Shown here in pieces: positions 20,987 through 54,077 of a stretch of DNA of 64,000 nucleotides. The notes beneath the pieces were generated by a model. The model did not search any database. It was not told where the DNA came from and worked only from the letters and a program-made list of their open reading frames with translations. A program made the position numbers and the translations under genes. Source of the DNA: Dactylorhiza incarnata (taxonomy: Eukaryota; Streptophyta; Magnoliopsida; Asparagales; Orchidaceae). How positions within the stretch are numbered: position 1 is the first letter of the stretch; the number at the start of each line of letters is the position of its first letter. The stretch lies in the NCBI GenBank assembly GCA_033032865.1, contig JAWHQI010000099.1, positions 7,085,501 through 7,149,500 of the forward strand, given 5' to 3'.

Positions 20987-21540
20987 GTGTAAAGTCCTAT
21001 TTTCACATATTTTATATTAATTGAACATTTGGGTTATAGATTCCATGGAAAATTATAAAATTTAGGATTTGATGTTTTTAGGTCATTAGGGTGCCATAGT
21101 AATTTTCTCAGATTTTTTAGAAGTCATAAACAAGTACTTGATGTGTAAAGTCCTATTTTCAAATCCTTTATATTAAATGAAAATTTAAGTTATAGATTCC
21201 ATGGAAAATTATGAAATTTAGGATTTGATGTTTTTAGGTCATTAAGGTACCATAGTAATTTTCTCAGAATTTCTGGAAGTTATGAAGTAGTACTTGATGA
21301 ATAAAGTCCTATTTGTACACATTTACATTAAATGGAGATTAGGGTTATAACTTCACTGGAAAATTATGAAACTTAGGATTTGATGTTTTTAGATCATTAT
21401 TGTGCTGTAGTAATTTTCTCAGAATTTTTGGGAGACCTGATCTAGTACTTGATGTATAAAGTCATATATTCACACCTTTTATATTAAATGAAATTTATGG
21501 TTATAAATTCTCTGGAAAATTATGGAATCCTGGGAATCAA
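20987..21540 (+). repeat. Tandem repeat (about 160 bp unit) in G2, right part
   Basis: Continuation of the array at 11500-11821. GTGTAAAGTCCTATTTTCA, TTCCATGGAAAATTATGAAA and TTTTTAGGTCATTA recur at about 21000, 21140, 21310 and 21460. Confidence 0.78.
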
Positions 21541-22413
21541 GTTATTATGTTAATTTCTATCTCTGGAAGTTTTATTAGCAAAATTTAACTCACTGTTAGA
21601 GTACTTCCTTTGTAATTTAGATGAAGACAATTGAGTAATTGATTTTAAATGGAAGTTAAATTTAGTTGAAAATTTTCCAAACTCTGGTCGACCTATAATT
21701 TACTCATTATTAACCTATAGTAAAAACTGGAACTCATTTGGACATGATAGGGTCAAGATTGCATCATAGGAGTCAAACCTAGTTCAAATTCCATCTTGGT
21801 CCGCGAATAGTAATAATTGAAGTATTTGATTTAGAACCCCTATTGATCCCCACACACTCAAGTATTAATTCCTGGAACATTGGGTGCGTTATGGAGAGTG
21901 ATTAGTGGTCATTCCAATTTGTGACAACACATAATGTAGAGTTAGGGTGCGTTTAGTAATTCATTGATTCAGGGTTTACAACGATATGATGAGGGGACAG
22001 AACCATAACAAGTAAGGGTATGATGGTATAAGGATTGAGACCTTCAGTTGTAATTGAGAGATAACACGATGAAGTAGTCAGCCATTAGGAGAGGTAGAGT
22101 TTCGGTGTTCAATTGAACACCGACGCTCATCAGTTCGAGTCAAATGTTAATCCACCCTAGGATTTTGAGCAATTAGAGAGCAAATAGGTATATAAGAATG
22201 GGTAGTCACTAATAAGAGTAAATATCCTGGAAAGGGGAATTTGGGCTTCATTCACCATCGCATTCCCTAGTACAGTTGAGAGTCCTTCACCGGGTAGTCC
22301 ACGGGAGGTCCAGGATTCACCCCAAGCTTCTAATCAACTAACAATAGACAAGAGTAGTAAAGTAGGAGAACTTGAAATATAATCTCCCTCCCAAATTTAG
22401 GATAGAATGAAAT

Positions 22414-22757
22414 AAGGACTAGGATAGTCCTGCGAGCGGTAGACTCGAGATATAAGGAAGGATTAGGATAGTCCTATGAGCGGTAGACTCGAGATATAAG
22501 GAAGGACTAGGATAGTCCTGCGAATGATAGGCTTAAGTTATAAGGAAAGGACTATGATAGTCCTGCGAGCGGTAGACTCGAGATATAAGGGAGGACTAGG
22601 ATAGTCCTGCGAGCGGTAGGCTCGAGTTATAAGGAAGGACTAGGATAGTCCTGCGAGTGGTAGGCTTGAGATATAAGGAAGGACTAGGATATTCCTGCGA
22701 GCGGTATGCTCGAGATATAAGGAAGGACTAGGATAGTCCTGCGAGCGGTTGACTCGA
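22414..22757 (+). repeat. Tandem array, about 45-bp unit with two palindromes
   Basis: Seven to eight units contain AGGACTA-GGA-TAGTCCT followed by CGAGC-GGTAG-GCTCG and a GATATAAGG spacer. Both parts are inverted repeats. The CGAGCGGTAGGCTCG part also appears once in the G1 LTR at about 592-606, so the array grew from a word shared by both families. Confidence 0.85.
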
Positions 22758-24141
22758 TTTTTATAAATGTTAGTTTAGAATTATGAGTTGAAGGCTCAAT
22801 GGTAAGAGATAATACATATTTGCATATGCATAAGATGTGGTGGGTCTTCAGTTCTGGCTTAGTCATCACACTGATAGCAGTTCCTTGACTCGGCAGTGCT
22901 AGTGGTTTGATTAGGGGCCGGGTTGTTTTACTGCGCATTCGACGGGACGGATTCCCTAAACCCTGCGTGGCCAAATCCAGTAGAGTACGCAGGAGCTCGT
23001 GAGTGCTGGGTACCGGTATCACAACGTACGTTAGGGCCTAGGTCTGGTGTGTGACTTACCTACCTAGGTGAGGAGACGCCCGCTCCTCTGCCACTGTTTG
23101 AGCATGATGGGAGGTGCCCAAGATGTTAGCTACTTACGAAAAGTGAGAACTAAAGGTTTGTACGTACAGAGTCATGTGCATGAGTTGCACCATTGCATTG
23201 CATTGTATATCATAGCATAGAATTCTTGCATAAAACAGAGAACTCATCGTATAAATTAGTATGGTCTCTTTTATACGATGAGTTTACCTTAGTGTTAGAT
23301 CCCTTAGCTTATGTGCATATAAGTTAAGGTTACATTTATAGCTGCTCTTTATTTATTATACCTGCTTCTTTTACTTATATTGTCTTTTATTTATTGCTGA
23401 TAAACTATATTCTGCTAGCGTAGAACTGTTATCCTTACTTGTTCAGTATTTACTATACCCTGATAGTCTAGCCTCTTGTCATCTGCTTGATTCATTACCC
23501 CTTGATGTCCTCCGTTTCCTCCTCTCGCACGATGCCTAGGAGTCGCGGGTGGAGGCGGGGAGGAATATGCTGAGTCTTATAGACTGATGGTCGGTGGACC
23601 TCATTATTAGAGGAGAACCAGGAAGGGCAGGACCTACACCAGAGGGAGGTACCTGAGACGGTGAACAGGCCAGGAGTTGGACTCTCCGCTGATGCTGGGA
23701 GAGCACCAGTAAGCAAAACACACGTCATTTCCCAACTCTGCACTTCTACCCAGGACAGAGGGCAAAGTTATATGCTATTGAGGGCGTCGAGCCGTATGGG
23801 TGTTTAGATTGCTATATCTTTGCCAGAAGAGAGGCAAAGAGAGACAGATAGATCGGGCTTAAGCCCTAGTTGTACTTTATTATTATTTGTGCACTCTGAT
23901 TAGTACTCTGCAATTTAGTATTATCTCATTTTGGACATGTATTATTTATATTATGTGATTGTTGTGGACATGTGCTTCTTGTTTACTTAACATATCTGTG
24001 ATTATGGTTGGCCTGGATGATGATGAATAGCCGGCAGGATCGACGTATTGTGGTGGCGACCATTTGGAGTAATGGTGCCGCCGCAAGACGGCGGTTTTGG
24101 GCGGTAAGACCCGGGAAAGAATGCAAAAAAGGGGTCTTACA

Positions 24142-25144: not shown

Positions 25145-27209
25145 CCCCCTTGAAGTGAGAAGTGGAAGTCAGCCCAAGTAAACTCCTCAACCGATCAAAC
25201 GGTCCCTTCGACAATGGCTTTGTACAGATGTTCGCGACATTATCCTTGCTCTACACATGCTCCACCATAAGAGATCCCTCCAACACCTTCTTCCGAATGA
25301 AATGATGTTGAATCTCTACGTGCTTCATTCGAGCGTGACAAACTAGATTGTTCACCAGTTTGAGAGCACTCTCACTGTCACTTCGAAGCAGAGTAGGACC
25401 TCGCACCTCCCTATGAATGTCCTCCACAAGCCTCCTAATCCAGATGGCTTCCTGAGCCGCCAAAACCGAAGCTTTGTACTCCATTTCTGTAGAGGAGACA
25501 GACACAGAATCCTGCTTCTTGCTGCACCATGAAATAGCTGTAGAGCCAGTCATAAAGACATATTCAGCGGTCGACCTTCGATCATCTGAATCTCCTCCAT
25601 ATTCAGCATCCATGAAACCATGCAAGCAAAAGCCTGAGTCCTTCCCATAGAAGAGACCCAAATCAGAGGTGGACTTTACACACTTCAAAATGCTCCTAGC
25701 CGCCATAAGATGAGGTTTCCGAAGCTCCGCCATAAACCGACTCACATGACCAACTGCATAAGAGATATTTGGCCTTGTGATCGTCAAGTATATCAGACTT
25801 CCGACCAGAGCTCGAAACACCAAAGGATCAGAAAGAACCTTCCCCTCATCACATCGAAGTATCATACCAACCTCTAGTGGAGTAGAGCTGCTCTTCCCTC
25901 CTTCCATGCCAAATTGCTTCACAATTCGATCTGCATAGCCCTTCTGGGATATAAACATACCACCCTCTTTCCTCTCCACTTCGAGTCCAAGGAAATGGTG
26001 GAGCTCACCCAAGTCCTTCATCTCAAATCTGATAGATAACTCAGCTCGAAGTCTAGCTACCTCCATCTCAGAGTTTCCCGTGACGATCATATCATCAACA
26101 TATAACAACACCAAGACCAGAAGCTCCCTTGTCTTCTTTACGAACAAGCTTGAATTAGAATCAGAAGCAAAGTAACTGCAGAATTGGAGGTATTCTACTA
26201 TCTTGCCATACCACGCCCGAGGCGCCTGCTTCAAGCCATAAAGATCCTTCTTGAGCTTACACACATGTCTTGGGTAAACTTCAGAAACATAACCAGGTGG
26301 CTGATCCATAAAAATGTCCTTGTCAATCTCGCCATAAAGGAAAGCATTCTTCACGTCAAGTTGCCAAATTTTCCACCCTTGGCAAGCTGCCAATGCAAAC
26401 ACCACCCGAACTAAAGTCATCTTGGCAATAGGGCTGAAGGTTTCTTTTTAATACTCCCCATACTTCTGAGAGAACCCTCGAGCTACAAGGCGAGCCTTGT
26501 ATCACTCGATGCTGCCATCAGCCTTCATCTTCAACTTAAAAACCCACTTGCAAGTCACAGGAGTAACACCCTCAACCTTAGGCACCAAGTCCTAAGACTT
26601 ATTCTTCCTGAGGGCAACCATATCTTCATCCATGGCCTCTTCCCACTCTTTGACTCCAACCACATTTTTAAAGCAAGATGGCTCTCTCTCATCTAGGGGC
26701 CCTGCAAAGAAATATGAGACGAAGCTCACCAAATTTCCCCTGTATACCGATCTGGTGGAATGATAGTCCTCTTGGACCTCCTCAAAGCTTTACTTTGATC
26801 CACCTCTTCAGCTACCTATTCTGTACTAGCTCCCCTTTCAGGCATACTTGGAGTGTTGCTCCCCCTGCTTCCAGAACCTGAAGCACCTGACCTAGAGCTA
26901 GAAGCAACTAGAGCACCTGGATAAACATGTAACTCCACCAGAACCTCATTAGTAGCTTCTTCAAGTCCACCATATAACCTGCTTTCTCGTAACTCAACAT
27001 AAGATCTACCCTGGTATGATGTTAACTCATCAAATACCACATCCTTTGAGACCACAAATCTCCATGTCTTGGGATCCATGCATCTCCACCCCTTCTTCTG
27101 GTCATCACAACCGACGAAGACTAGCTTCCTTTCTTTTGCATTTAGCTTCATTCTAAGGGCATCAGGAACATGCATGTAGCAGGTAGATCTGAACACTCGA
27201 AGGTGTTCC
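25125..27209 (-). pseudogene. pol: K1 copia pol: integrase C-end, reverse transcriptase, RNase H
   Basis: In minus sense, 27204-26816 encodes the integrase C-terminal region (CYMHVPDALRMKLNAKERK, then DPKTWRFVVSKDVVFDE). RT follows: a KARLVARGFSQ segment near 26480 with in-frame stops, WQLDVKNAFLYGE and LKQAPRAWY, then the catalytic YVDDMIVTG near 26100. RNase H ends the protein (WCSKKQDSVSVSSTEMEYKA, then ICTKPLSKGPFDRLRSLLG). The frame ends at 25125, slightly inside the LTR. RT and RNase H copy the genomic RNA inside the particle. Stops near 25245, 26430 and 26500, plus the split by B, show it is dead. The 389-residue RT/RNase H block is otherwise intact. Confidence 0.9.
27205..27209. repeat. 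Target-site duplication GTTCC, left copy (element B)
   Basis: GTTCC before TGTTGTTTATT is repeated at 35286-35290 after CCAACA. Removing B and one GTTCC joins the two halves of the K1 integrase in frame. Confidence 0.95.
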
Positions 27210-27466
27210 TGTTGTTTATTGGGTGTCGACTTATCACTTAGAGGGGGCAGGGGGTGGGGGGGGGGGGTGAATAGGTTTTTCTTTGTATATTATCCCCTTT
27301 TTGGTGTTCTTGATTTCTGGTTAATAGATTTATAAAGTAGAAAGCACAACACAGAAAACACACAATGATATATAGAGGTTCCTCAAGAAATGGTGTCTTG
27401 AGTAGTCCTCTTTCCCTCTGCGCCTACCTAACAGTGTGCTAGGATCGACAAACGCCGCCAAATATT

Positions 27467-27806
27467 CAGGCCCTCAAGCCTTACAACACGGACCCGCAAG
27501 TCCAACTGCCTAGGCCCGCAAGCCCCTACTGCCCTCGAGCCCGCAAGCTCGACACTCAGGCCATCAAGCCCTACACGACACATACCCGCAAGTCCTGCGC
27601 CTACAACATAGGCCTGCAAGCCCCTACTGCGCCTGAGACCTCAAGCTCGACAAGATCGGACCCGCAAGTCCACTGCCTTGGCCCTCAAGCCTCACAGCTC
27701 TCCAGCCCGCAAGCTAGACGGTGTCGGACCCACAAGTCCACTGCCCTGGCCCTTAAGGCCGACATCTCTCCAGCCCTCAAGCTAGACAAATAGGCCCGCA
27801 AGCCTT
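27467..27806 (-). repeat. Tandem mini-hairpin array in leader of B (left LTR)
   Basis: About 15 units, each a 3-4 bp stem around CCGCAA or CCTCAA (TTGCGG or TTGAGG in element sense). Examples: GGAC-CCGCAA-GTCC at 27490-27503, GAGC-CCGCAA-GCTC at 27537-27550, GGAC-CCGCAA-GTCC at 27658-27671 and GGC-CCGCAA-GCC at 27793-27804. A few units are degraded (27590, 27740). The array lies downstream of the TATA box, so it should be in the RNA leader. The homologous array in the right LTR is at about 33775-34115. Confidence 0.9.
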
Positions 27807-28148
27807 TACAAGAAATTACAGTAGAAAAACAACTGTTACTTCTGCTGGATGAAGATCGGCAACTTTAGCCTGATGAAGATTGACTTCTTTAGGTTGAAGA
27901 AGATGCTTTTTGATCTGGAGATTCAAGACTAGAACTTCTTCAGCCTTCTCTTCTTTTGCCTGGTGTTGATCGGCTACTTTCTAGTCGATGGGGATGACTG
28001 ATTCTTCAGAGAGCACTTGAAGCTTGCTCTCTACTTGATCTTCTTCTTCTCCGCCGAGAATACTGTTCTCTTGAAGTGTAGCGGCAGGATTCTTTCTCGT
28101 TCTTTTTCTTTATTTTAAGGACTACTTTTCTAGGGCATCACTGTTCCC

Positions 28149-28155
28149 TTTTATA
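28149..28155 (-). promoter_or_regulatory. TATA box of B left LTR
   Basis: Minus-strand TATAAAA within CCTATAAAAGGG. The same motif is at 34460-34466 in the right (5') LTR. Confidence 0.8.
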
Positions 28156-28227
28156 GGATAGATGAGCCGCATAACGGTAACATGTGATGTCCTTTAATGT
28201 CAGACGCCCATTCCATAAGAGCACGCG

Positions 28228-28243
28228 CTGATTGGACAATCAG
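28228..28243. promoter_or_regulatory. Palindromic CCAAT-box element in B LTR
   Basis: CTGATTGGACAATCAG is a near-perfect 16-bp palindrome containing ATTGG (CCAAT), about 75-90 bases upstream of the TATA box. It recurs at 34539-34554 and near 53446 (E); C has a one-base-longer form near 46168 and 50781. Confidence 0.7.
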
Positions 28244-28259
28244 GCGGCGGCATTAAATG

Positions 28260-28860
28260 CTGACAGCGCGTCCGCAACATTTTAATTTGTCTCGACGATA
28301 TTTCCATCGTTTCGATGTCATGGACAATATCTCGACGATAGGACTTTGTCGAACCTTTACGCCTTGATAGATCTTCAATTCTCCTTGCTTCTGGCTCTGA
28401 TGCTGGTATCTCGATGATACGAGGCATTCTGGTTCTCTTGCGTATACGACGATATGTTGTCTCTAACTGTGTCATCATAATCACCTTGTTCTCTCGACGA
28501 CATGCCTTCTTTATGATGATGTTCAATGCCATTAGTCATATTTAGCCTTTTCAGCGACAAGGCTTCTTCACGACGATTTCTGTTATTCTCGACGACAAGG
28601 CCACTTTGGTGAAGTCGACGATACTGCATCTTCTCTGCGTTCGACGATCTTGTCGAGTCTCAACAGTCGATGATCTTCCTTCTGAGTTCGACGATCTTCC
28701 TTCTGCATTCGATGAACACGCCAATTCTTAGCGGTCGTCGATCTTCCTTCTGCGTTCGACGAACATGCCAATTCTCAGCGGTCATCGATCTTCTTTCCGA
28801 GTTCGACGAACTCCATTCTTCGTTCAACGAACTTCCTTCTGCGTTCGATGAATCTTGTTC
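28260..28860. repeat. U3 TCGACGA word cluster of B, left LTR
   Basis: Many copies of TCGACGAT and GTTCGACGAAC (for example 28754-28764 and 28801-28811), the latter with five-base inverted arms around A. The right-LTR counterpart is 34600-35120. Confidence 0.85.
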
Positions 28861-29018
28861 TTCTTGACAATATAGTACTTACTGAAATAACTCAGGTACT
28901 TGACATATTGTCGATCTCTGCAAGCATGAGCTAGATGGAGCATTAAATACAACGTGCACTTATCATTGACCTGGGCACTTCTTCAAATCAGGAACATTGC
29001 TGGGCACTATTCCCAACA

Positions 29019-29031
29019 ATCTCCCCCTATT
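29019..29031 (-). promoter_or_regulatory. Polypurine tract of B
   Basis: Minus strand AATAGGGGGAGAT, abutting the 3' LTR. Confidence 0.85.
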
Positions 29032-29450
29032 TGAAGAAGTCATAACTCACTCAATGATAAATGCCATTCACATAAAAGGTTTAACATTTCAAGCAAATAA
29101 ACATGTAATGATGATATTTCAGCTAAACATGAGTGAACATAGAATTTTGAAAAATATTACTTCATTTATAAATAGTGCCAAATGTTTTCAAAAGTTTTGA
29201 CATTTCTATATTTAGCCCCCTTAAAGATTTAGCCATCTATTTCTCTGATGCTCTCATATCAGCATCACCCTCTGCTTTCTTGGCACTGGCTTCCTGCACC
29301 TTATTAGCTTGCCTGATGAAGTATTTAAACGGTTTAGGATGATATTTTAAAGGTTCATGAGTGTCAGCTGGAATACTTCCTGCTTGCTTATTTCTTCTAT
29401 GTTCTCTCCTCGTTTCTCATTTTTGTTTCTTCATCCTCCAGTGCTTCCTT

Positions 29451-31222
29451 TTATTTATCTTTATCAGTAACATGAAAATCTGTATGTTGCTCTTCAGCAG
29501 GCTCATCATAATATAGAGGAGGGAGATTCATTGCTTCCCTGATGGTGTTTGTGGTCCAGATGGCATGATCACTACTGGTCGTTATCATTGATCTCTCCCC
29601 CTTTATTACTTCTTCAGATATCCCTTTGTGGAGATTCTCCTCGAATGCCAGTATTTTGTTCTTGAGCATGTGGATACCTGCTTCCAAGTGATTCTTGGTT
29701 TCAAGCAGATGACTGCCTAGATCTTTATTGTGTTGATCTAGACTTTCTTTGAGATCAGTTTTATGTTCAGCCATCCTCTTGGTGGATGCAATGTAGGCCT
29801 TTTCCAAGCTGCCGACAATCATTGACTGATTAGCCCCTAGGTTAGATATACCCTTGTGAGTACGGGCAGTGAATTCGTGCAGATTTTTCACATCATTGCT
29901 TAAGGTTGCCGTGTCAGCAGACAGTTCTCTTCTTAGATCATTGATAGCAGAGGTGACATAACTTTTAAGTTTTAATCTTTGCTATTCCAGGAGCATCTTT
30001 ATCTGAGATAATAGTGGGAGCTCCACTGGACTAACCTCTGGAGCTGAACCATCTTGTTCCTCTTCTTCATCCCCTTCAATTATTTGAGATAGAGATTTTC
30101 TTATTGGTGAGTGGATTGGCTCATTCTCCTTTTCAGGACTTTGCTGATCATTGCTAGTTTCATCTACAGGTATCTCTTGGCTGTATCCTTGCATTGCCGA
30201 TTCAGAATGACCAGTATCCTCAACTCCTATGATCTTATTGATCATTTCTTCCACTTGAGCAGGGAGCTCACTGTCCTTCTCCCCCTCAGTTTCAGCACTA
30301 CCTTGATCTATTCCTGCTGTTATCCTGGGTTCCTGACTTGGAGCAGAGGTCAGGAAGGCTACATTCCTTGTCTCCACAGCTGCCTCAAAGTCAGATGGAG
30401 GTGTGCTGTTGCCTGACTCACTTTCTTCAGACGAGCTTTCTACCTTTCTTTTCACATCTTCTGCAGTCTTTAGCTTCTTGGGAGGCCTAGTCAGAACTTT
30501 TTCCATCTTTCCAGTATTCTGATATCCATCCTTTTCATGTGATGGATTTTTACTCCATATTTTTTGTTAAAACGTTCAGGGTAGGAAAGCAGAAAGTATA
30601 GTGATAGAATTCTTCCCAGATTTGGGGCTTGAAAGCTTTCTTGTATCCTCTTGAAGATTTGCTGACCCTAGTTGGTCCTTTTACTTAGGATTATCCTTGA
30701 CATCATCTCGAACATGGGCTTGGATATCCTATCATATGACCCTACCTTGCAGAGGAGGGCTTTTCCCACAATGTCTGCCAACATCTTTCCTTGTTGATTT
30801 AAGTTTTTCCTTTCCAGAGATCCATAGGTTTTGCTCGAATGTCCGCACCAAGCCAGAGCCTTGACAAGGTCTTCCTGAGTAATCTTTTCGTCTTCCTCCC
30901 CCTTGGCAAAGGCTGGCAACTGAAGAGCCCTGTTCAATCTTTTGGGATTCACCTTAACCTTTATCCCGTTAATTTCACTCTTCACAGACGTTCCCTTCGA
31001 GCCACCCTTGGCATTTGAGTAGAACTCTAGCACTTCTCTTTTTAATATTACTGTTGGCTCAGAGAGGGCGAACTCCAGGCCGATGGTCTCGAGCAACTTA
31101 ATGGTGCTCTGGATTTCTTCTGATCCTTCTGAGAACCCATTCCTCACCACTTCACTTCCTTCGAACAGAAAATCTTCCTTCTTTGACGCTATCTTTTGCT
31201 TGATCCATGAGGATTCTAGCAT
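29451..31222 (-). pseudogene. Accessory ORF of B, 'putative plant transposon protein'-like, frameshifted
   Basis: Three minus-strand pieces: 31222-30668 (184 codons), 30506-29982 and 29891-29451. The first begins MLESSWIKQK and contains EFALSEP..LEFYSNA, VNPKRLNRALQLP and LADIVGKALLCKVGSYD. This arrangement resembles, from memory, Pfam PF20167. The second is basic then acidic and Ser/Glu-rich. The third is a probable coiled coil (about residues 1-110 of that piece). Frame changes near 30510-30670 and 29895-29980 break it. The same domain order (core, low complexity, helical tail) occurs in F at 60426-62130 and partly in D. Function is unknown. By position it could be the env-like ORF described for SIRE elements. 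Confidence 0.72.
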
Positions 31223-31770
31223 TGTCGACTCGTTTACTTTTAGAAGGCGTGGAGAACACGACGACTTTTTAGGGATAATGTAGAGAGTGTTTTAACCTTA
31301 ATACATTTGATCTTATTTATAGTGTACGAGTTGGAAGTTGAAGTGTCATTTGTTAAATGGCTGACTAACTCGAGTTTTAGCTGTAATGATTGAGCTTAGC
31401 CCTAATTGAGAGTCTGCTGACGATTGGATATCATCGTGATGCAAACTCGATGTCGAGGGGTCATTTCGACGATACCAATCATCATTCCGACGATATGGTT
31501 TTTGAAAATTACTTTTACAATATTAGATAAAGATGAGTTTATGTGTTTAAACATTAACATGGTTACCTTCACCTTGGCCTTTAAGTCTCCTTGAGCTAGT
31601 GGCTCCCCCATGATGGAATATCCACTTATCTTTACTTCTAGCTCCCCCTAGATTAGTGCACCATGGTATGCGGTAAGTTTTTCTTAGTCCAGAGCTGAGC
31701 CTGGAGCACTTATTGTCCATTAGCCTTGTTTGCTTTTTAATGGCTAAATGGACTACCCTGCAAGACAGAT
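31223..31770 (-). other. Gap between gag and accessory ORF in B
   Basis: About 550 bases. The part next to gag (31770-31550) looks like eroded protease-start sequence (a CSRLSSGLRKTY segment where DSGCSRHMTG is usual). The remainder holds TCGACGATA words and the TATA-like box. No intact frame. Confidence 0.5.
31314..31321 (-). promoter_or_regulatory. TATA-like box upstream of the B accessory ORF
   Basis: Minus-strand TATAAATA about 90 bases before the ATG at 31222, in the gag-accessory gap. Words like those of the LTR U3 (TCGACGATA, TCGATGTCGA) lie 100-190 bases further upstream at 31418-31500. Confidence 0.5.
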
Positions 31771-33456
31771 TTAACATCCCTTAGGAACCCAAGGTGATTT
31801 GGGTCCTAGGTTCTTGTTAGCATAGTAGGGAATCCCTCTACTCACCACTGCCCTTCCAGAAGGTCTCTCCTTTGCATTAGGCACACTAGGGTTGTGCCAA
31901 CAGTCAATGGCAAAGTGTCCCACTTTGGCAAAGCACCAACATTCATGGATGTTGTATCTTCTTTTCTGAACAATTTTTGAAGTATGTTTAGTAGAGAAGG
32001 CAACATCATTCTTCCTATCTCTCTCACCCAAGAGCTGACTAGCTGCTCTAGTATCATTATTTCTTCTTGATTTTATCTGTTTGTCAGCAACAGATGTCAG
32101 CTTGGCAGCTGACATGGTGTTGATGGCATCAGATATGTTCAAGTGAGAATTGATCATACTAGGGCTACTTGTCTGCTTCTTATCTGGAAGAGATTGAGAA
32201 GATGTTGTACCTTTATCCTTGAGAGTGGGGGCTGGGACACCAAGTACAAATGGTCCATGATGGGCCATTTGAATTTCCTCATGGGGAGCCTTTAATGCAA
32301 TCATCCCCATACCCTTTCTCTTTCCATAGTCAGAAGCATTTCCAAGACTCATAGAGCTTCCATTCATCCAGTGACCATGGACACTGTCCTGATCATACCT
32401 ATTTGAGGGAAGCACTACCTTCTGAAAGGTGGTGTGAGGCTCTGCTTTAGTTTTGCCCCTTTTTCCATTCCCAACATCTATTGCCCCTTCATTGTAACCC
32501 AATCCCCTCCTATTTCCATAGGAGGAGAAGGTGTCAATGATGGGCAGTACAGTTTTGGGTTTAGAGAATTGAGCCACCAAGCTTCTTTCCTTACGAAGGT
32601 CATTCTTAAGTTTCTTGATAAGTTCTTCCCTTCGGCTTCTTTCATCATAAAGCTTGTCTATGATTTTGTTGAGCTCATTTCGATCGGTGTACTTACTGTA
32701 GGACATACCCAGTTTCCCATCCGATTCAACCTTAAAAGGTCTGAGAGATTCTAGCTCCCTAGCTTGTTCCTTAACAAGCCTTTTGTTCTTTCTTAGAGCC
32801 TCCAAGAGATCACCAAACTCCTCTAATAGATCACTATGATTCTTATTGTTGCAAGATGAGCAGTCTTCTGCATCATCTTCAGATGATGAATAATCACCTG
32901 ATGCACTCTTGGTCTTCTTAAATGAAGCAGGTAGTAAAGGTGTGTGAGTGGTGCATACCTGATCATGATGTGATTCATCATGATTTTCTTCATCTGATAG
33001 ATCCATCAACCCACAGACATCCTCATCCTCAGAGTCACAGTTTGTGAGAGTCAAGGGTGCTCTTATTCTTTCTCCTGCTCCAGAGCTTTCTTCATCTTCT
33101 GATTCACTGTCTGAATTGGTCAGTGGTGCTCTGATACATACCTCTTCATGAGAGGTTTCTTCTTCAAAATCTTCCTCTGACCCTTTCATGAGGACTTCTA
33201 AGGAGTCCCACATGTCCATTGTTGTTGTGCAATGACTCAGCTTCTGGTGTGTTGCCAGATCTACTGCACCAGCTAGAATGCTTCTTGCTTCTTTGTCTAA
33301 GCTGACTAGAAGAGTCTCATCTTTTAACATTGTCATGGAGGGACCTTTTTGAACGATCAAAAACATTCTTGTATCCATTGCCCCCATGAATATTCTTACT
33401 CTAACTTTCCAAAGGGCAAAGTTCTCTCTAGAGCACATAACTATTCTTGACTCCAT
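31771..33456 (-). CDS. gag: Copia gag-like protein of B (561 aa)
   Basis: One open frame. The N-terminus (CSRENFALWKVRVRIFMGAMD) is the DUF4219/UBN2 start, and the UBN2 segment through MWDSLEVLMKG ends early, near residue 95. The usual first zinc knuckle is absent. Acidic Ser/Glu stretches follow, then a coiled coil (about 200-300) and SKPKTVLPIIDTFS, a phrase shared with the C gag. Near the C-terminus is CWCFAKVGHFAIDC, a CX2CX4HX4C-like knuckle, then SPWVPKGC at the stop. The protein would form the particle and bind RNA. Length and open frame argue for recent function; the shortened UBN2 is odd. The start is the first ATG of the frame, 67 bases after the primer site. Confidence 0.88.
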   Translation of the reverse strand: MESRIVMCSRENFALWKVRVRIFMGAMDTRMFLIVQKGPSMTMLKDETLLVSLDKEARSILAGAVDLATHQKLSHCTTTMDMWDSLEVLMKGSEEDFEEETSHEEVCIRAPLTNSDSESEDEESSGAGERIRAPLTLTNCDSEDEDVCGLMDLSDEENHDESHHDQVCTTHTPLLPASFKKTKSASGDYSSSEDDAEDCSSCNNKNHSDLLEEFGDLLEALRKNKRLVKEQARELESLRPFKVESDGKLGMSYSKYTDRNELNKIIDKLYDERSRREELIKKLKNDLRKERSLVAQFSKPKTVLPIIDTFSSYGNRRGLGYNEGAIDVGNGKRGKTKAEPHTTFQKVVLPSNRYDQDSVHGHWMNGSSMSLGNASDYGKRKGMGMIALKAPHEEIQMAHHGPFVLGVPAPTLKDKGTTSSQSLPDKKQTSSPSMINSHLNISDAINTMSAAKLTSVADKQIKSRRNNDTRAASQLLGERDRKNDVAFSTKHTSKIVQKRRYNIHECWCFAKVGHFAIDCWHNPSVPNAKERPSGRAVVSRGIPYYANKNLGPKSPWVPKGC

Positions 33457-33522
33457 ACTTATGAAACTTAGACACCCACTGGCAGATCAGTTCAAGCTGT
33501 TAGGCTTTTCTTTGAACAACCT

Positions 33523-33537
33523 CGCTTTGATACCACT
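33523..33537 (-). promoter_or_regulatory. Primer-binding site of B
   Basis: Minus strand AGTGGTATCAAAGCG, next to the 5' LTR; tRNA-Met type. Confidence 0.88.
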
Positions 33538-35285
33538 TGTTGTTTATTGGGTGTCGACTTATCACCTAGAGGGGGGGGGTGAATAGGCTTTTCTTTGTAT
33601 ATTATCCCCTTTTTGGTGTTCTTGATTTCTAGTTAATAGATTTATAAAGTAGAAAGCACAACACAGAAAACACACAATGATATATAGAGGTTCCTCAAGA
33701 CAGGGTGTCTTGAGTAGTCCTCTTTCCCTCTGCGCCTACCTAGCAGTGTGCTAGGCTCGGCAAACGCCGCCAAATCTTCAAGCCCTCAAGCCTTACAACA
33801 CGGACCTGCAAGTCCAACAGCCTAGGCCCGCAAGCGCCTACTTCCCCCAAGCCCGCAAGCTCGACACTCAGGCCCTCAATCCCTACACAACACAGACCCG
33901 CAAGTCCCGTGCCTACAACCTAGGCCCGCAAGCCCCTACTGTGCTCGAGCCCTCAAGCTCGATAAGATCGGACCCGCAAGTCCACTGCCCTGGCCCTCAA
34001 GCCTCACAGCTCTCCAGCCCGCAAGCTAGACGGTGTCAGACCCGCAAGTCCACTTTCCTGGCCCTCAAGCCTCACAACTCTCCATACCTCAAGCTAGACA
34101 AATAGGCCCGCAAGCCTTTACAAGAAATTACAGTAGAAAAACAACTGTTACTACTGCTGGATGAAGATCGACAACTTTAGCCTGATGAAGATTGGCTTCT
34201 TTAGGTTAAAGAAGATGCTTTTTGATATGGAGATTCAACACTGGATCTTCTTCAGTCTTCTCTTCTTTTGCCTGGTGTTGATCGGCTACTTTCCAGTCGA
34301 TGGGGATGACTGATTCTTCAGAGAGCACTTGAAGCTTGCTCTCTACTTGATCTTCTTCTTCTCCGCCGAGAATACCGTTCTCTTGAAGTGTAGCGGCGAG
34401 ATTCTTTCTCATTCTTTTTCTTTATTTTAGGACTACTTTTCTAGGGCATCACTGTTCCCTTTTATAGGATAGATGAGCCGCATAACGGTAACATGTGATG
34501 TCCTTTAATGTCAGACGCCCATTCTATAAGAGCATGCACTGATTGGACAATCAGGCGGCAACATTAAATGCTGATAGCGCGCCCACAACATTTGAATTTG
34601 TCTCGATGATATTTCCATCGTTACGACGTCATGGACAATATCTCGACGATAGGACTTTGTCGAACCCTTATGCCTTGATAGATCTTCAATTATCCTTGCT
34701 TCTACCTCTGATGCTGGTATCTCGACGATACGAGGCATTCTGGTGCTCTTGCATATACGACGATATGCTGTCTCTGACTGTGTCATCGTAATCACCTTGT
34801 TCTCTCTACGACATGCCTTCTTTACGACGATGTTCAATGCCATCAGTCATATTTAGCCTTTTCAGCGACAAGGCTTCTTCACGACAATTTTTGTTATTCT
34901 CGACGACAAGGCCACTTTGGTGAAGTCGACGATACTGCGTCTTCTCTGCGTTCGACGATCTTGCCGAGTCTCAGCGGTCGACGATCTTCCTTCTGAGTTC
35001 GATGATCTTCCTTCTGCGTTCGACGAACACGCCAATTCTCAGCAGTCGTCGATCTTCTTTCTGAGTTTGACGAACTCCATTCTTCGTTCGACGAACTTCC
35101 TTCTGCGTTCGATGAATCTTGTTCTTCTTGACAATATAGTACTTACTGAAATAACTCAGGTCGTACTTGACATATTGTTGATCTCTTCAAGCATGAGCTA
35201 GATGGAACATTAAATACAACTTGCACTTATTATTGACCTGAACACTTCTTCAAATCAGGAACATTGCTGGGCACTATTTCCAACA
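33538..35285 (-). repeat. LTR of B, right copy (5' LTR)
   Basis: 1,748 bases, same layout as the left copy: C-run near the primer site, hairpin array 33775-34115, TATA 34460-34466, CCAAT palindrome 34539-34554, U3 TCGACGA words 34600-35120. It is shorter mainly through a shorter G-run and small indels. Confidence 0.93.
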
Positions 35286-35290
35286 GTTCC

Positions 35291-36060
35291 ACCGTAGGCT
35301 TTATCTTGAACATCAACTCATGAGGGGTCTTTATGTTGATTGGACTTAGAGGCATCCGATTGATGACATAAGTTGCACAAGACATTTCTTTGCCCAGAAG
35401 TACTTTGGGATACTCTTGGTATGAAGCCAACATTTGCAGGTCTCCGTTAGATGATGAATCGTCTACTCTGCAACTTTGTTCTGTTGTGGAGTGTGAGCAC
35501 AAGAGATCTCTCTTCAGATTCCATGCTTCCTGCAGAAGTTAAAGAACGCATTTGAGCTGAACTCAACTCCATTGTCAGTTCTGAACTTTTTGATCCGCAG
35601 GTTAAGCCGACCCTCCACTAGCTCCTTGAATTCCACAAACTTTTCAAAGGCTTCAGACTTCTCCTTCAGAAAATATACCCAAGTATATCTAGTGAAGTCA
35701 ACAATCAAAACCAACATATACCTGCTACCTCCAAGACTGACAGTTGCGGTAAGTCCAAACAGATCACCTTGAATACACTCCAATGGTGCTTTGCATCTGC
35801 TTTGTGATTTGTCGAATGGAAGGCGATGAGCCTTACCATATTGACAACCTGCACAAACATGACCTTCTCTGAAAGATGACAGACTAGGCAAGCCTCTCAC
35901 AAGGACTCTTCCCGCCATATCCTTCAGCTTATCCATCCCAACATGTCCAAGTCTTTCATGCAAGATAGCGACACTGTCATTAGTCCTCATCTTATCAACA
36001 TTGGAGCTTGTAGATAGCATAAATGATGATTTCAATTTAGAGTTTGTTTTGCAAAACCTT
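35291..36060 (-). pseudogene. pol: K1 copia integrase, N-terminal part
   Basis: In minus sense 36035-35514 encodes the GAG-pre-integrase zinc region (HERLGHVGMDKLKD, then CAGCQYGKAHR) and the integrase core: QGDLFGL with the first Asp and FRTDNGVEFSSN with the second. 35502-35286 continues in another frame through TPQQNKVAE (catalytic Glu region) and TYVINRMPLSPINIKTPHELM, then meets the B insertion. Integrase would join the cDNA to the chromosome. A frameshift near 35505 and stops inactivate it. Sequence upstream of 36060, with protease and gag, is missing. Confidence 0.9.
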
Positions 36061-38365: not shown

Positions 38366-38831
<466 letters not shown>

Positions 38832-44863: not shown

Positions 44864-45203
44864 TAATTGTCAACGGCTATTTCTGTCTTGGAATAAGGGA
44901 AGAAAGAATATAATAACTGAATATAATATTCTTACTTATCTGTCTTGAATATGTCCAAAGATATTTGAATAGATCCGTTAAAGTTGTAGATCTATATTCA
45001 AAGAACTGATATTTAAGGAATTAATTGATCTGGAATCAATATTTGTCGATCTGAGCCATAATAAAAAAATTGTAGAGTGCTGGCTGGAATTCGTCGAGCG
45101 CTGCTCAGAGAATGTCGAACGCTGGCTGGAAATCTGTCGAGCGCTGGCTGGAGAACTGTCGAGCGCTAGCTGGAAAACTGTCGAGCGCTGGCAAGAATTC
45201 GTC
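44855..45203 (-). repeat. Internal LTR fragment of D
   Basis: Repeats 41887-42240 (CCTTTGCATTAATTGTCAAC through the TCGAGCGCTGG cluster). Both LTR ends are missing. The shared phrase CCTTTGCATTAATTG at the junction suggests a deletion through short homology. Confidence 0.78.
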
Positions 45204-45218
45204 ATAACAATGGAACCT

Positions 45219-45233
45219 CGCTTTGATACCACT
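45219..45233 (-). promoter_or_regulatory. Extra primer-binding site left of C's left LTR
   Basis: Minus strand AGTGGTATCAAAGCG directly abuts the LTR at 45234. The other side of the same LTR has a polypurine tract, so this LTR looks like both a 5' and a 3' LTR. Confidence 0.8.
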
Positions 45234-46838
45234 TGTTAGAGATGGAACGTTCACCTAGAGAGGGGGGGGGGGTGTTAGGTGATCTTGGTACTTTTTGATC
45301 TATTAGTGTGAGTTATCGATATTCAAGCAATGCACAAGGTTAACACACAAATAAGTCAAACCGGACGACACGAGATCTCTAGAGGTTCCTCAAGACGGGG
45401 TGTCTTGAGTAGTCCTCTTTCCCTCTACGCCTACCCAGCAGTGTGCTAGGCTCGGCAAACTCCGCCAAAAGCTTCAGGCCCTCAAGCCTTACAACACGGA
45501 CCCGCAAGTCCCAACAACCTAGGCCCTCAAGCCCCTACTGCCCCCGAGCCCACAAGCTCGTCACTCAGGCCCTCAAGCCCTACCACACGGACCCGCAAGT
45601 CCCAACAGCCTAGACCCGCAAGCCCCTACTGCCCCGAACCCGCAAGCTCGACAAGACGCACCCGCAAGTGCACTGCCCAGGCCCTCAAGCCTCACAACTC
45701 TCCAGCCTTCAAGCTAAACGGTTTGGCCCGCAAGCCTTACAAGAAAATACAATAATAAAATGTTTCTCCTGCTGGATGAAGATCGGCACCTTTAGCCTGT
45801 TGAAGATCGGCTCCTTGAGATTGAAGAAGATTGTTATGAATCAGATCTTGAGCGCACGGTTCTTCTTCAAATCTTTTCTTAGCCAGATGAGGATTGGCTT
45901 CTTAGCAGTCGATGAAGATGACTGCTCCTTCCTTTTCTCCTTCTTTCTCGCGGCGCTTGTGTTTTTTTGATTTACTATGTGCGCAAGTTCTTTCTTGATG
46001 ATTAACTTTTTAGGGCAGCCTCATATATCCTTTTATAAGACTGCGATGCCCCCCAATGGTCTTCTAAGAAGTTTCTTTATGTGTCAGACCTCCATTCCCT
46101 TTTAGCACGCGCTGATATCTTTTTCTTTTTGGAGACGCGCTAATGCCTCGATTCATTAAATGCACGCACTGATTTGGACAATCAGGCGGCGACATTAACT
46201 GATGATAGTACGTCTGCCCGATTTGAATTTGTCTCGATGATATTTCCATTGTTATGATGACATGAATAATATCTCGACGACAGCCCTTTGTCGATGCCAT
46301 GAACTCTGGTAAACCTTCATGTCTTCTTTCTTCTGCCTCTGATGCTGGCATCACAACAATACGAGACATCCTGGCGATTCTTCACATACGACGATATGCC
46401 ATTTCTAACTGTGTCGTTGAGATCCTCTTTCTTGCAATATGTCATTGTAATCATGTTGTTTACTCGACGACAATCCTTCCTTCGATATCTTTGATTCTTC
46501 TCTGCATTCGACGATCTCTCCACGTCTCAGCGTTCGACGATCAGCATTCTTCGTTCGACGATCTCGCCATGTCTCAGCGTTCGACGATCAGCATTCTTCG
46601 TTCGACAATTTTGCCATGTCTCAGCGGTCGACGAATACTTTGCTTCTCAGCGGCTGGTGCTCTGCCCGTCATTATGACGACAAGCACGCATTGTCGATGA
46701 TATCGCCTGTTCTTCTCGACGATATGTACTTATATTTTCCTGAGATTATGAACTTGATGTACGATCAAATACAAAGTGAAGTACTTTTGAAATGATGACT
46801 TCTTCAAATCAGGAATCATGTGGGCAAGATTCCCAACA
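45234..46838 (-). repeat. LTR of C, left copy
   Basis: TGTTAGAGATGGAACG...TTCCCAACA, 1,605 bases. Hairpin array 45470-45745, TATA 46031-46037 (minus TATAAAA), CCAAT palindrome near 46168, U3 TTCGACGAT words 46230-46720. Confidence 0.92.
45470..45745 (-). repeat. Tandem mini-hairpin array in leader of C (left LTR)
   Basis: Same type as in B, with GGAC/GTCC, GGC/GCC and GAGC/GCTC stems around CCGCAA or CCTCAA. It differs at GCAC-CCGCAA-GTGC (45658-45671), where B has GGAC-CCGCAA-GTCC in the same context. Counterparts are at about 50085-50360 (right LTR) and 52740-53010 (E). Confidence 0.9.
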
Positions 46839-47130
46839 ATCTCCCCCCATTTAAAGAAGTCAGAATCTCAATTCAAGCCTACTTTCACTTGACATTGAAT
46901 ATCATAATCTTAGATGAAACTGTTTAAAAATTTAACTTATCTTTTGCAGAACTCTTGGAGTATATCAAGTTTGTATCTCCCCCTTGATTTGATGCCTCTT
47001 CCTTGCTCCCCTTGCCTTTAAGGTCTTCTTGAGCAATACTTGAGCACCATTTCTCCCCCTTTCTGACTTCTTGCCTTCTGCTTTTTTAACCAAGGAGTAG
47101 GACAAGCTCCCCCTTGCTCAGGCATGATAC
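46839..47130 (-). other. 3' tail of C with polypurine tracts
   Basis: It matches 54078-54366 of E. Minus-strand AAATGGGGGGAGAT abuts the LTR, and three further G-rich (GGGGGAG) runs lie near 46980, 47055 and 47115. No coding seen. Confidence 0.75.
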
Positions 47131-49833: not shown

Positions 49834-51448
49834 TGTTAGAGATGGAACGTTCACCTAGAGGGTGGGGGGGGGGGGGGGGGGTGTTAGGTGATCTTGGTAC
49901 CTTTTCATCTATTAGTGTGAGTTATCGATATTCAAGCAATGCACAAGGTTAACACACAAATAAGTCAAACCAGACGACACAAGATCTATAGAGGTTCCTC
50001 AAGACGGGGTTTCTTGAGTAGTCCTCTTTCCCTCTATGCCTACCCAGCAGTATGCTAGGCTCGGCAAACTGCGCCAAAAGCTTCAGGCGCTCAAGCCTTA
50101 CAACACGGACCCGTAAGTCCCAACAGCCTAGGCCCTCAAGCCCCTACTGCCCCCGAGCCCACAAGCTCGACACTCAGGCCCTCAAGCCCTACCACACGGA
50201 CCCGCAAGTCCCAACAACCTAGACCCGCAAGCCCCTACTGCCCCGAGCCCGCAAGCTAGACAAGACGCACCCGCAAGTGCACTGCCCTGGCCCTCAAGCC
50301 TCACAGCTCTCCAGCCCTCAAGCTAGACGGTTTGGCCCACAAGCCTTACAAGAAAATATAATAATAAAATGTTTCTCCTGCCGGATGAAGATCGACACCT
50401 TTAGCCTGTTGAAGATAGGCTCCTTGAGATTGAAGAAGATTGTTATGAATCAGATCTTGAGCGCACAATTCTTCTTCAAATCTTTTCTTAGCCAGATGAG
50501 GATTGGCTTCTTAGGAGTCGATGAAGATGACTGCTCCTTCCTTTTCTCTTTCTTTCTTGCGGCGCTTGTGTTTTTTCGATTTACTATGTGCGCAAGTTCT
50601 TTCTTGATGAATAACTTTTTTAGGGCAGCCTCATATATCCTTTTATAAGACTGCGATGCCCCCTAACGGTCTTCTATGAAGTTTCTTTATGTGTCAGAAC
50701 TCCATTCCCTTTTAGCACGCGCTGATATCTTTTTCTTTTTGGAGACACGCTAATGCCTCGATTCATTAAATGCATGCGCTGATTTGGACAATCAGGTGGC
50801 GGCATTAACTGCTGATAGTACGTCTGCACGATTTGAATCTATCTCGACGATATTTCCATTGTTATGACGACATGAATAATATCTCGACGACTGCCCTTTG
50901 TTGATGCCATGAATTCTGGTAGACCTTCATGTCTTCTTTCTTCTGCCTCTGATGCTGGCATCACAACAATATGAGACATCCTGGCGATTCTTCACAAACG
51001 ACGATATGCCATTTCTGACTGCGTCGTTGAGATCCTCTTTCTTGCAATATGTCGTTGTAATAATGTTGTTTACTCGACGACAATCCTTCCTTCGATATCT
51101 TTGATTCTTCTCTGCGTTCGACGATCTCTCTACGTCTCAGCGTTCGACGATCAACATTCTCCGTTCGACGATATCGCCATGTCTCAGCGTTTGATGAGCA
51201 GCATTCTTCGTTCGACGATTTTGCCCTATCTCAGCGGTCAACGAATACTTTGCTTCTCAGCGGCTGCTGCTCTGCCCGTCATTACGACGACAAGCACGCA
51301 TTGTCGACGCTATCGCATGTTCTTCTCGACGATGTGTACTTATATTTTCCTGAGATTATGAACTAGATGTACGATCAAATACAAAGTGAAGTACTCTTAA
51401 AATGATGACTTCTTCAAATCAGGAATCATGTGGGCAAGATTCCCAACA
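49834..51448 (-). repeat. LTR of C, right copy (5' LTR)
   Basis: TGTTAGAGATGG...CCCAACA, 1,615 bases. G-run near 49863-49880, hairpin array 50085-50360 including GCAC-CCGCAA-GTGC at 50267-50280, TATA at 50641-50647 (minus), U3 TTCGACGAT words 50830-51330. Confidence 0.92.
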
Positions 51449-52499: not shown

Positions 52500-54077
52500 T
52501 GTTGGAGATGGAACGTTCACCTAGAGGGGGGGGGGGGGGTGTTAGGTGATCTTGGTGTTTTTGATCTATTAGTGTGAGTTATCAATTTTCAAGCAATGCA
52601 CAAAGTTAACACACAAATAAGTCACACCGGACGACACAAGATTTATAGAGGTTCCTCAAGACGGGGTGTCTTGAGTAGTCCTCTTTCCCTCTACGCCTAC
52701 CCAGCAGTATGCTAGGCTCAACAAACTCTGCCAAAAACTTCAGGCCCTCAAGCTTTACAACACGGACCCGCAAGTCCCAATAGCCTAGGCCCTCAAGCCC
52801 TTACTGCCCCCGAGCCCGTAAGCTCGATACTCAGGCCCTCAAGCCCTACACAACACAGACCCACAATTCCTGTGTCTACAGCCTAGGCCCGCAAGCCCCT
52901 ACTGCACCCGAGCCCTCAAGCTCGACAAATCGCACCCGCAAGTGCACTGCCCTGGCCCTCAAGCCTCACAGCTCTCCAGCCCTCAAGCTAGACAAATTTG
53001 GCCCGCAAGCCTTACAAGAAAATACAATGATAAAGTGTTTCTTCTGCCAGATGAAGATCGACACCTTTAGCCTGTTGATGATCTGCTCCTTAAGATTGAA
53101 GAAGATTGTTCTGAATCAGATCTTGAGCGCACGGTTCTTCTTCAAATCTTTCCTTAGCCAGATGAGGATTGGCTTCTTAGCAGTCGATGAAGATGCCTGC
53201 TCCTTCTTTTTCTCTTTCTTTCTTGCGGCGCTTGTGTTTATCGATTCGCTATGTGCGCAATTTCTTTCTTGATGATTAACTTTTAGGGCAACCTCATGTA
53301 TCCTTTTTATCGGACTGCGATGTCTCCCAACGGTCTTCTAAAAAGTTTCTTTATGTGTCAGACCTCCATTCCTTTTTAGCACGCAATGATATCTTTATTT
53401 CTTTTGGAGTATGCGCTAATACCTTGATTCATTAAGTGCACGCGCTGATTGGACAATCAGGCGGTGGCATTAACTGCTGACAGTACGTCTGCAAGATTTG
53501 AATTCTGGCTTGAAGATATCTGCATCATTACGATGACAAGCTGTCTCTCACTTTGTCGTCGCGATCTTCCTTCTGCTTCAGATGGCGGTATCTCGACGAT
53601 ACAAGATATCCGGGCGATTATGTATATACGACGATCTTCTTTCTCTGACAGTGTCGTCGTGAGCTTCCTTCTTGCATCATGTCTTCGTAATCATATGTTC
53701 TCTCGACGACATGAGTTCCACACGATGATGTCCTGTGTCTTCTCTATGATTGACGATCTTGCCATCCTTCGCTCGACGGTCGCCATTCTTTGTTCGACGA
53801 TCTCGCCATGTCTCAGCATTCGACGATCGGCATTCTTCGTTCGACGATCTCGCTAAGTCTCAGCGTTCGACGAATACTTTGCTTCTCAGTGGCTGCTGCT
53901 CTTCCCGTCATTACAACGATAAGCACGCATTGTCGACGATATCGCCTGTTCTTGTCGACGATATGTACATATATTTTCCTGAGATTATGAACTAGATGTA
54001 CGATCAAATACAAAGTGAAGTACTCTTGGTATGATGACTTCTTCAAATCAGGAATCATGTGGGCAAGATTCCCCACA
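52500..54077 (-). repeat. 3' LTR of E
   Basis: TGTTGGAGATGGAACG...TTCCCCACA, 1,578 bases, homologous to the C LTRs. Hairpin array 52740-53010 (with GCAC-CCGCAA-GTGC at 52932-52945), CCAAT palindrome near 53446, U3 words 53500-53950. The TATA position reads GATAAAAA in minus sense (53303-53310), so this promoter may be weakened. Confidence 0.9.

Follow-up and report, generated by a model that had tools for sequence, protein, structure and literature searches.

A constant-loop, variable-stem hairpin array in the probable 5' leader of Sirevirus-like copia elements of Dactylorhiza incarnata

To our knowledge, the packaging signals of plant long terminal repeat (LTR) retrotransposons are poorly mapped. 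The closest described repeats are the palindromes in the LTRs of Sireviruses, where 13 of the 21 elements studied bear a palindromic repeat in 8-32 copies (PMC2829016), and BARE1 particles are known to package BARE2, which is itself unable to make Gag (PMC3735527). Here we describe a tandem array of small hairpins in a stretch of 64,000 nucleotides (nt) of Dactylorhiza incarnata (assembly GCA_033032865.1, contig JAWHQI010000099.1, positions 7,085,501 to 7,149,500; hereafter the window). The minus strand of the window carries five LTRs of one clade (LTR1-LTR5), each with such an array; LTR1 and LTR2 bound element A, which by its sequence features appears to be a Sirevirus-like copia element. 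The two sides of the hairpin stems were found to have changed together, and the array probably forms part of a transcribed 5' leader.

Units of the array and covariation of their stems

A first-pass annotation, made from the letters of the window, had described about 15 mini-hairpins at 27467..27806, with a constant loop and changing complementary stems. Their number and the constancy of the loop were confirmed. The LTR1 array contains 15 cores between 27471 and 27802 at a spacing of 21-28 nt, of which 11 match the core CTTGNGGG exactly and four with one mismatch. At least three base pairs can be formed in 12 of the 15 units, with wobble allowed and the closing C-G counted, the other three (27757, 27645 and 27592) having fewer. 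The loop is TTGNGG, in which N is mostly A or C and sometimes T, and around four inner stem classes can be discerned (GG/CC, GA/TC, AG/CT and CA/TG). Together the five LTRs hold 66 units (15, 15, 12, 12 and 12), not counting three core-like sequences at array ends that deviate from the core by two letters.

Within these 66 units pair -1/+1 is Watson-Crick in 92% (57% when shuffled) and pair -2/+2 in 94% (52%). For the 46 distinct 18-letter units, considered over the first three flanking pairs, 91.8% of the cells were paired as compared to 75.8% in shuffles and 6.5-56.5% with the partner slid by 1-3 columns. Three of the five measures in this test lay above all 500 shuffles, whereas the numbers of both-side-changed pairs (3 vs 2.9) and of further pair types (8 vs 7.1) did not. 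The Watson-Crick fractions for 438 units from 32 runs, chosen by core alone (169 distinct units), were 0.87 at -1/+1 and 0.91 at -2/+2, against 0.52 and 0.55 after shuffling. Covariation is strong at -1/+1 and -2/+2, weak at -3/+3 and not significant at -4/+4 and -5/+5. As a correction to the annotated stems, the stem is mainly one of three pairs with a weak fourth.

To count the changes on both sides of a pair, a tree was built without the stem columns and 200 simulations served as reference. On this tree the pair is retained in 7 of 8 both-sided changes at -2/+2 and in 5 of 8 at -3/+3, values reached by none of the simulations, while the off-register controls gave 0 of 4 and 0 of 3 (1 of 2 for the -5/+5 control). 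In the clearest compensated unit, GGAC/GTCC of family A corresponds to GCAC/GTGC in LTR3-5, with the other GGAC units unchanged, which fits better with pairing within the unit than between units. Tandem duplication, which the annotation had argued against, nevertheless accounts for many units, as a 68-nt repeat spanning three hairpins (1.9 copies, 87% match) has unchanged stems. Wobble states in the two inner pairs of the 169 distinct units (G-U in 18 cells vs A-C in 6 on the sense strand) are only suggestive of a sense-strand preference. The coordinated change suggests, although it does not prove, that folded RNA is what matters, and we consider it more probable than not that the hairpins were maintained by selection at some time.

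Position downstream of the TATA box, conservation and occurrence

In agreement with the first-pass annotation the array lies downstream of the TATA box of the LTR (Table 1). It follows at a distance of 302-372 nt in LTR1-4 and likewise in 16 of the 23 further loci, the TATA box of the other seven not being found within reach. The annotation had also placed the array in the 5' leader next to gag. The leader part of this claim is probably right given the depletion of ATG described below, the adjacency is not: because element A lies on the minus strand, 27467..27806 belongs to its 3' LTR, and the copy expected in the leader is the twin in the 5' LTR (33779-34118).

Counted from a point 32 nt downstream of the TATA box up to the end of the LTR, ATG occurs 4, 2, 0 and 1 times in LTR1-4, compared to 9.2-11.0 times in shuffled sequences (at most 1 in 300 as low), whereas the U3 counts (18-24) equal those of the shuffles; LTR5, in which the TATA box is mutated, stood outside this test. 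The same holds for the 16 further loci with a TATA box, where the interval between TATA box and array has 8 ATG vs 95 CAT and U3 has 238 ATG vs 221 CAT. Since ATG is depleted between the TATA box and the array, transcription likely starts just after the TATA box, and the array would therefore be transcribed, unless it is spliced out. The depletion thus supports, indirectly, a location of the array in the 5' leader, and that it constitutes a transcribed leader element seems likely to us. Inside the array ATG and CAT are both rare, and after it the counts in LTR1-4 are 0, 0, 0 and 1 for ATG and 2, 1, 2 and 4 for CAT. Because CAT is rare there too, the test says little or nothing within the array and after it.

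With ambiguous columns removed, families A and B differ at 5-8% of the positions in the array plus its following 100 nt, and at 26% of those in U3. Starting some 120 nt upstream of the array and ending 100 nt downstream, alignment windows with good coverage have a raw identity of about 77-98%; on both sides of this block it is 36-57%, the flanking stretches being close to unalignable between the families. The conserved block includes a further hairpin just downstream of the array, CTCAAGAC...GTCTTGAG, of which both arms are intact in 20 of 24 aligned copies, as judged by eye. Selection on a common cis-element and exchange between elements can both explain the conservation of the block.

Within the rest of the window the core scan gave isolated single matches without a cluster, and a hairpin scan gave three weaker groups, each of 4-5 hairpins whose loops have four letters; a strict scan of the window for constant-loop arrays returned the LTR1 and LTR2 arrays only. 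In the whole genome (3.27 Gb) the pattern of three cores in register was matched 57,817 times (28,438 + 29,379; matches overlap within one array and each is counted separately), whereas a reversed control gave 70 matches (21 + 49). The neighbouring 200 kb contain two arrays of 17 units each according to the core-based scan; the strict scan missed both and returned a CGTCG palindrome cluster only. Among six further genomic stretches, L042, L039 and L044 hold 20, 19 and 15 core-like units, L039 having an AGAC/GTCT stem class and one unit whose stem may reach 8 pairs, and the array of L043 is interrupted. In L040 and L041 the units, 9 and 8 in number, are near-uniform, 23 nt long and of one stem type; this family may be close to the state from which the array started. 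The number of units across all examined arrays is 8 to 20. Protein coding by the array was considered and rejected, as most spacings are not divisible by three and vary from copy to copy. For the translated antisense frame across the LTR5 array no relatives were found, Rfam gave no known RNA family for 27000-35500 up to E = 1, and viral contigs gave no exact match to a two-unit pattern in a search that may omit near records.

Predicted folding and competing explanations

Folded singly on the sense strand, six typed units have predicted energies of -4.4 to -9.9 kcal/mol, with a predicted U-G pair closing a UGNG tetraloop, and in folds of the whole array with pairs limited to 22 nt the mean unit-stem probability is 0.64-0.81. 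The predicted fold, which had been put forward as a check, is dominated by local hairpins only when long pairs are forbidden, and full sense folds are mostly unit-unit duplexes.

The selection for RNA structure that the first-pass annotation had inferred has the covariation in its favour, but a series of results weighs against it. Independent compensatory events are few, because there are only about four inner stem classes, and these are partly copied by the 68-nt repeat. On the stem-free tree only 1 of 2 both-sided changes at -1/+1 keeps the pair, which 11 of 200 simulations reach, and on the tree with the stem columns there is one pair-keeping both-sided change per pair, with 5, 27 and 38 of 200 simulations attaining this. 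One-sided changes outnumber two-sided ones, and on the stem-free tree the pair is broken by 15 of 30, 5 of 18 and 11 of 42 of them. In the comparison of LTR1 with LTR2, which both belong to element A, 8 inner pairs have changed and 7 of these are broken, in keeping with decay after insertion. No changed inner pair is broken in the comparison of family A with family B (0 of 2) or of LTR3 with LTR4 (0 of 1), but 2 of 3 are broken between LTR3/4 and LTR5. In 24 aligned arrays, scanned together with one anchor outside the array, 20 of 29 private and 6 of 9 shared inner-pair variants are broken, and recent copies show no sign of selection on the stems. Spacers are conserved between families as well as stems are, so that the block might be retained, or exchanged, in its entirety. 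The mean unit-stem probability in whole-array sense folds is only 0.02-0.23, as duplexes between units are favoured, and with the 22-nt limit the energy z of the sense strand (-0.9 to -2.7) has no advantage over that of the antisense strand (-1.5 to -3.0). As for the leader itself, ATG is not depleted after the array in the 16 further loci (17 ATG, 7 CAT), and LTR4 has 7 ATG up to the start of gag where 15.7 are expected.

The functional fold could also be a long rod of unit-unit duplexes, giving the leader a shape suited to ribosome handling, dimerisation or small-RNA production. With G-U pairs counted, the units are for the most part self-complementary, homodimers of the six typed units have predicted energies of -17.6 to -31.7 kcal/mol, and the minimum free energy z of the LTR1 array is -4.6 on the sense and -1.0 on the antisense strand. 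Still, G/U-rich repeats of such kind are expected to fold strongly anyway, and the GCAC/GTGC unit of LTR3-5, without a like partner in its own array, folds locally (mean probability 0.62, 0.97 and 0.49). In our view the rod is quite improbable. It is also conceivable, albeit unlikely, that structure was never selected: a 23-nt palindromic unit would have been multiplied by slippage, with hairpin-guided template switching during reverse transcription copying the changes from arm to arm. The 68-nt higher-order repeat, the varying unit numbers (8 to 20), the near-uniform units of the L040/L041 family and the lack of a selection signal in recent copies would all fit, but the block is conserved amid diverged flanks, the array is present in several families of the genome, and template switching of this kind itself still requires the hairpin to form.

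Somewhat better placed, although we rate it as rather unlikely too, is a palindrome array of the known Sirevirus kind that acts at the DNA level (cis-regulatory, CpG-rich and a small-RNA hotspot) and lies downstream of the TATA box by chance. Palindromic repeats are common in Sireviruses (see above), several published consensus units share the letters GGAC/GTCC with the array units, as judged by eye, the antisense fold retains the unit hairpins better than the sense fold (mean 0.37-0.57 vs 0.02-0.23), and the palindromes of maize Sireviruses are tied to small RNAs (PMC10760457). The small-RNA evasion proposed in the annotation finds no support; the same source reports that small RNAs are in excess at such palindromes. 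What argues against the DNA-level explanation is that the known repeats are symmetric and stand upstream of the TATA box, whereas the array has an asymmetric constant core with varying arms; moreover, upstream palindromes are present as well (TCGTCGA, 8-9 copies in U3 of each of the five LTRs), while their CGTCG/CGACG core has 0 copies in the 800 nt after U3.

The reading that we tentatively prefer is that the array acts in cis, as RNA, within the 5' leader (R-U5) of a single clade of Sirevirus-like copia elements, possibly serving docking or dimerisation for packaging. Transcription would start just after the TATA box, as the ATG depletion indicates, so that the genomic RNA bears the array between the start and the primer binding site. 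Each unit may form, if only transiently, a short and weak hairpin exposing the UUGNGG loop, in line with the covariation of two to three pairs. The row of like loops could then act multivalently as a docking platform, with the zinc-knuckle Gag of an autonomous partner as the likeliest ligand, and alternatively or additionally the units could provide self-complementary contacts for RNA dimerisation. In this way the RNA would be packed into particles, including that of seemingly pol-less relatives such as element A, for which BARE2 in BARE1 particles offers a precedent, while ribosomes might still scan past the weak single hairpins to gag. More doubtful is the wider idea that tandem hairpins with constant loop and variable stem represent an RNA recognition code, selected as a multivalent Gag-docking and packaging platform common to autonomous and pol-less relatives. 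With an array that can be counted and probably has thousands of natural copies in one genome, one could ask which features of the leader mark an RNA for packaging and how pol-less relatives borrow the packaging machinery.

The host elements and comparison with known systems

Table 1. Coordinates in the window of the hairpin arrays and of the features of element A
Feature	Position	Strand	Basis or remark
Hairpin array, 15 units, core CTTGNGGG with complementary flanks, LTR1 copy	27467..27806	-	core scan, pairing
Hairpin array, 15 units, LTR2 copy, expected in RNA leader	33779..34118	-	core scan
Hairpin array, 12 units, LTR3	45474..45738	-	core scan
Hairpin array, 12 units, LTR4	50083..50347	-	core scan
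Hairpin array, 12 units, LTR5	52740..53014	-	core scan
TATA box of LTR1, TATAAAAGG	28147..28155	-	353 nt before array
TATA box of LTR2	34458..34466	-	352 nt before array; ATG depletion starts downstream
Hairpin CTCAAGAC...GTCTTGAG	27382..27402	-	just downstream of array; one arm mutated in LTR1 copy
LTR1, 3' LTR of element A	27210..29018	-	LTR comparison
LTR2, 5' LTR of element A	33538..35285	-	LTR comparison
Target-site duplication GTTCC, one side of element A	27205..27209	.	outer flank of LTR1
Target-site duplication GTTCC, other side of element A	35286..35290	.	outer flank of LTR2
Primer binding site of element A, TATCAAAGC	33524..33532	-	sequence
Polypurine tract before LTR1, AGGGGGAG	29021..29028	-	sequence
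Gag-like open reading frame (ORF) of element A	31771..33456	-	similar to zinc-knuckle ORF 47318-48655

Judged by its LTR and polypurine tract, element A is a Sirevirus-like copia element, the characters of the group being taken from PMC2829016. The tract AGGGGGAG (29028-29021) is followed by the AT/TG junction, an inverted repeat (CTTCTTCAAAT...ATTTGAAGAAG, recognised by eye) surrounds the junction with LTR1, and C runs occur near the 3' end of all five LTRs. With respect to the Sirevirus primer binding site TATCAGAGC, the 5-nt spacer AGTGG fits and TATCAAAGC differs by one letter. The same polypurine tract occurs in four copies before LTR5 (54353, 54299, 54223 and 54087), and the LTR3 junction carries a one-letter variant. 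The gag ORFs share 28% identity over 450 aligned positions; a Pfam search gave no match for the one of element A, and for one gag ORF no relatives were found at E <= 0.001 among the 7999 candidates scored. No pol was found among the three ORFs of element A that were searched (one of them extended; ORF 29451-29981 and short frames were left out), and an RVT_2 fragment precedes LTR5. A weak Transposase_32 match (30668-31222, minus strand; 32.8 bits with a family cut-off of 45) lies in the interior of element A.

Elsewhere in the window LTR3 (45214-46842) is preceded by a polypurine-like tract and followed by a primer binding site, within a chain of LTR4, gag, LTR3 and a further ORF that looks as if elements had recombined. 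The interior after LTR3 contains an open frame of 801 amino acids (42464-44869, minus strand; 799 from its ATG, 42464-44863) without a Pfam match. Tandem repeats with periods of 44 nt and about 156 nt (22370-22811 and 20987-21550) lie near another LTR pair, and a repeat at 38366-38824 has a period of about 50 nt and copies that are about 99% identical.

The claim of novelty made for the array stands in part. Among the papers that searches of the open PMC literature listed, no title or displayed abstract describes a constant-loop hairpin array in a copia leader, but palindrome arrays are known in such LTRs, upstream of the TATA box (PMC2829016). The copia-type Ty1 resembles the present case in having PAL dimerisation palindromes and a packaging region near the 5' end of its RNA, but these are a few separate motifs and an array is not mentioned in the part consulted (PMC8396678). 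The packaging signals of hepatitis B virus likewise comprise several stem-loops with a common loop motif, RGAG; they are dispersed over the genome and recognition by the core protein has been reported (PMC7612645), whereas the present array is tandem and known from sequence only. The clustered palindromes of maize Sireviruses (a 2016 study, via PMC10760457 and PMC5311732) can fold as RNA as well, but they belong to the cis-regulatory part of the LTR, have the motif CACCGGACNNNGTCCGGTG and are linked to small RNAs, and changing stems are not mentioned in the passages available. Closest are the RM boxes of Sireviruses (PMC2829016), which occur in the same element group and likewise consist of many short palindromic LTR repeats. 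These boxes are symmetric palindromes with constant arms upstream of the TATA box, in contrast to the constant asymmetric core and variable arms found here downstream of it. As repeats like the RM boxes (TCGTCGA) seem to be separately present in U3, the leader array is probably a second kind of palindrome array, which suggests that such LTRs carry at least two kinds, of which one is probably transcribed.
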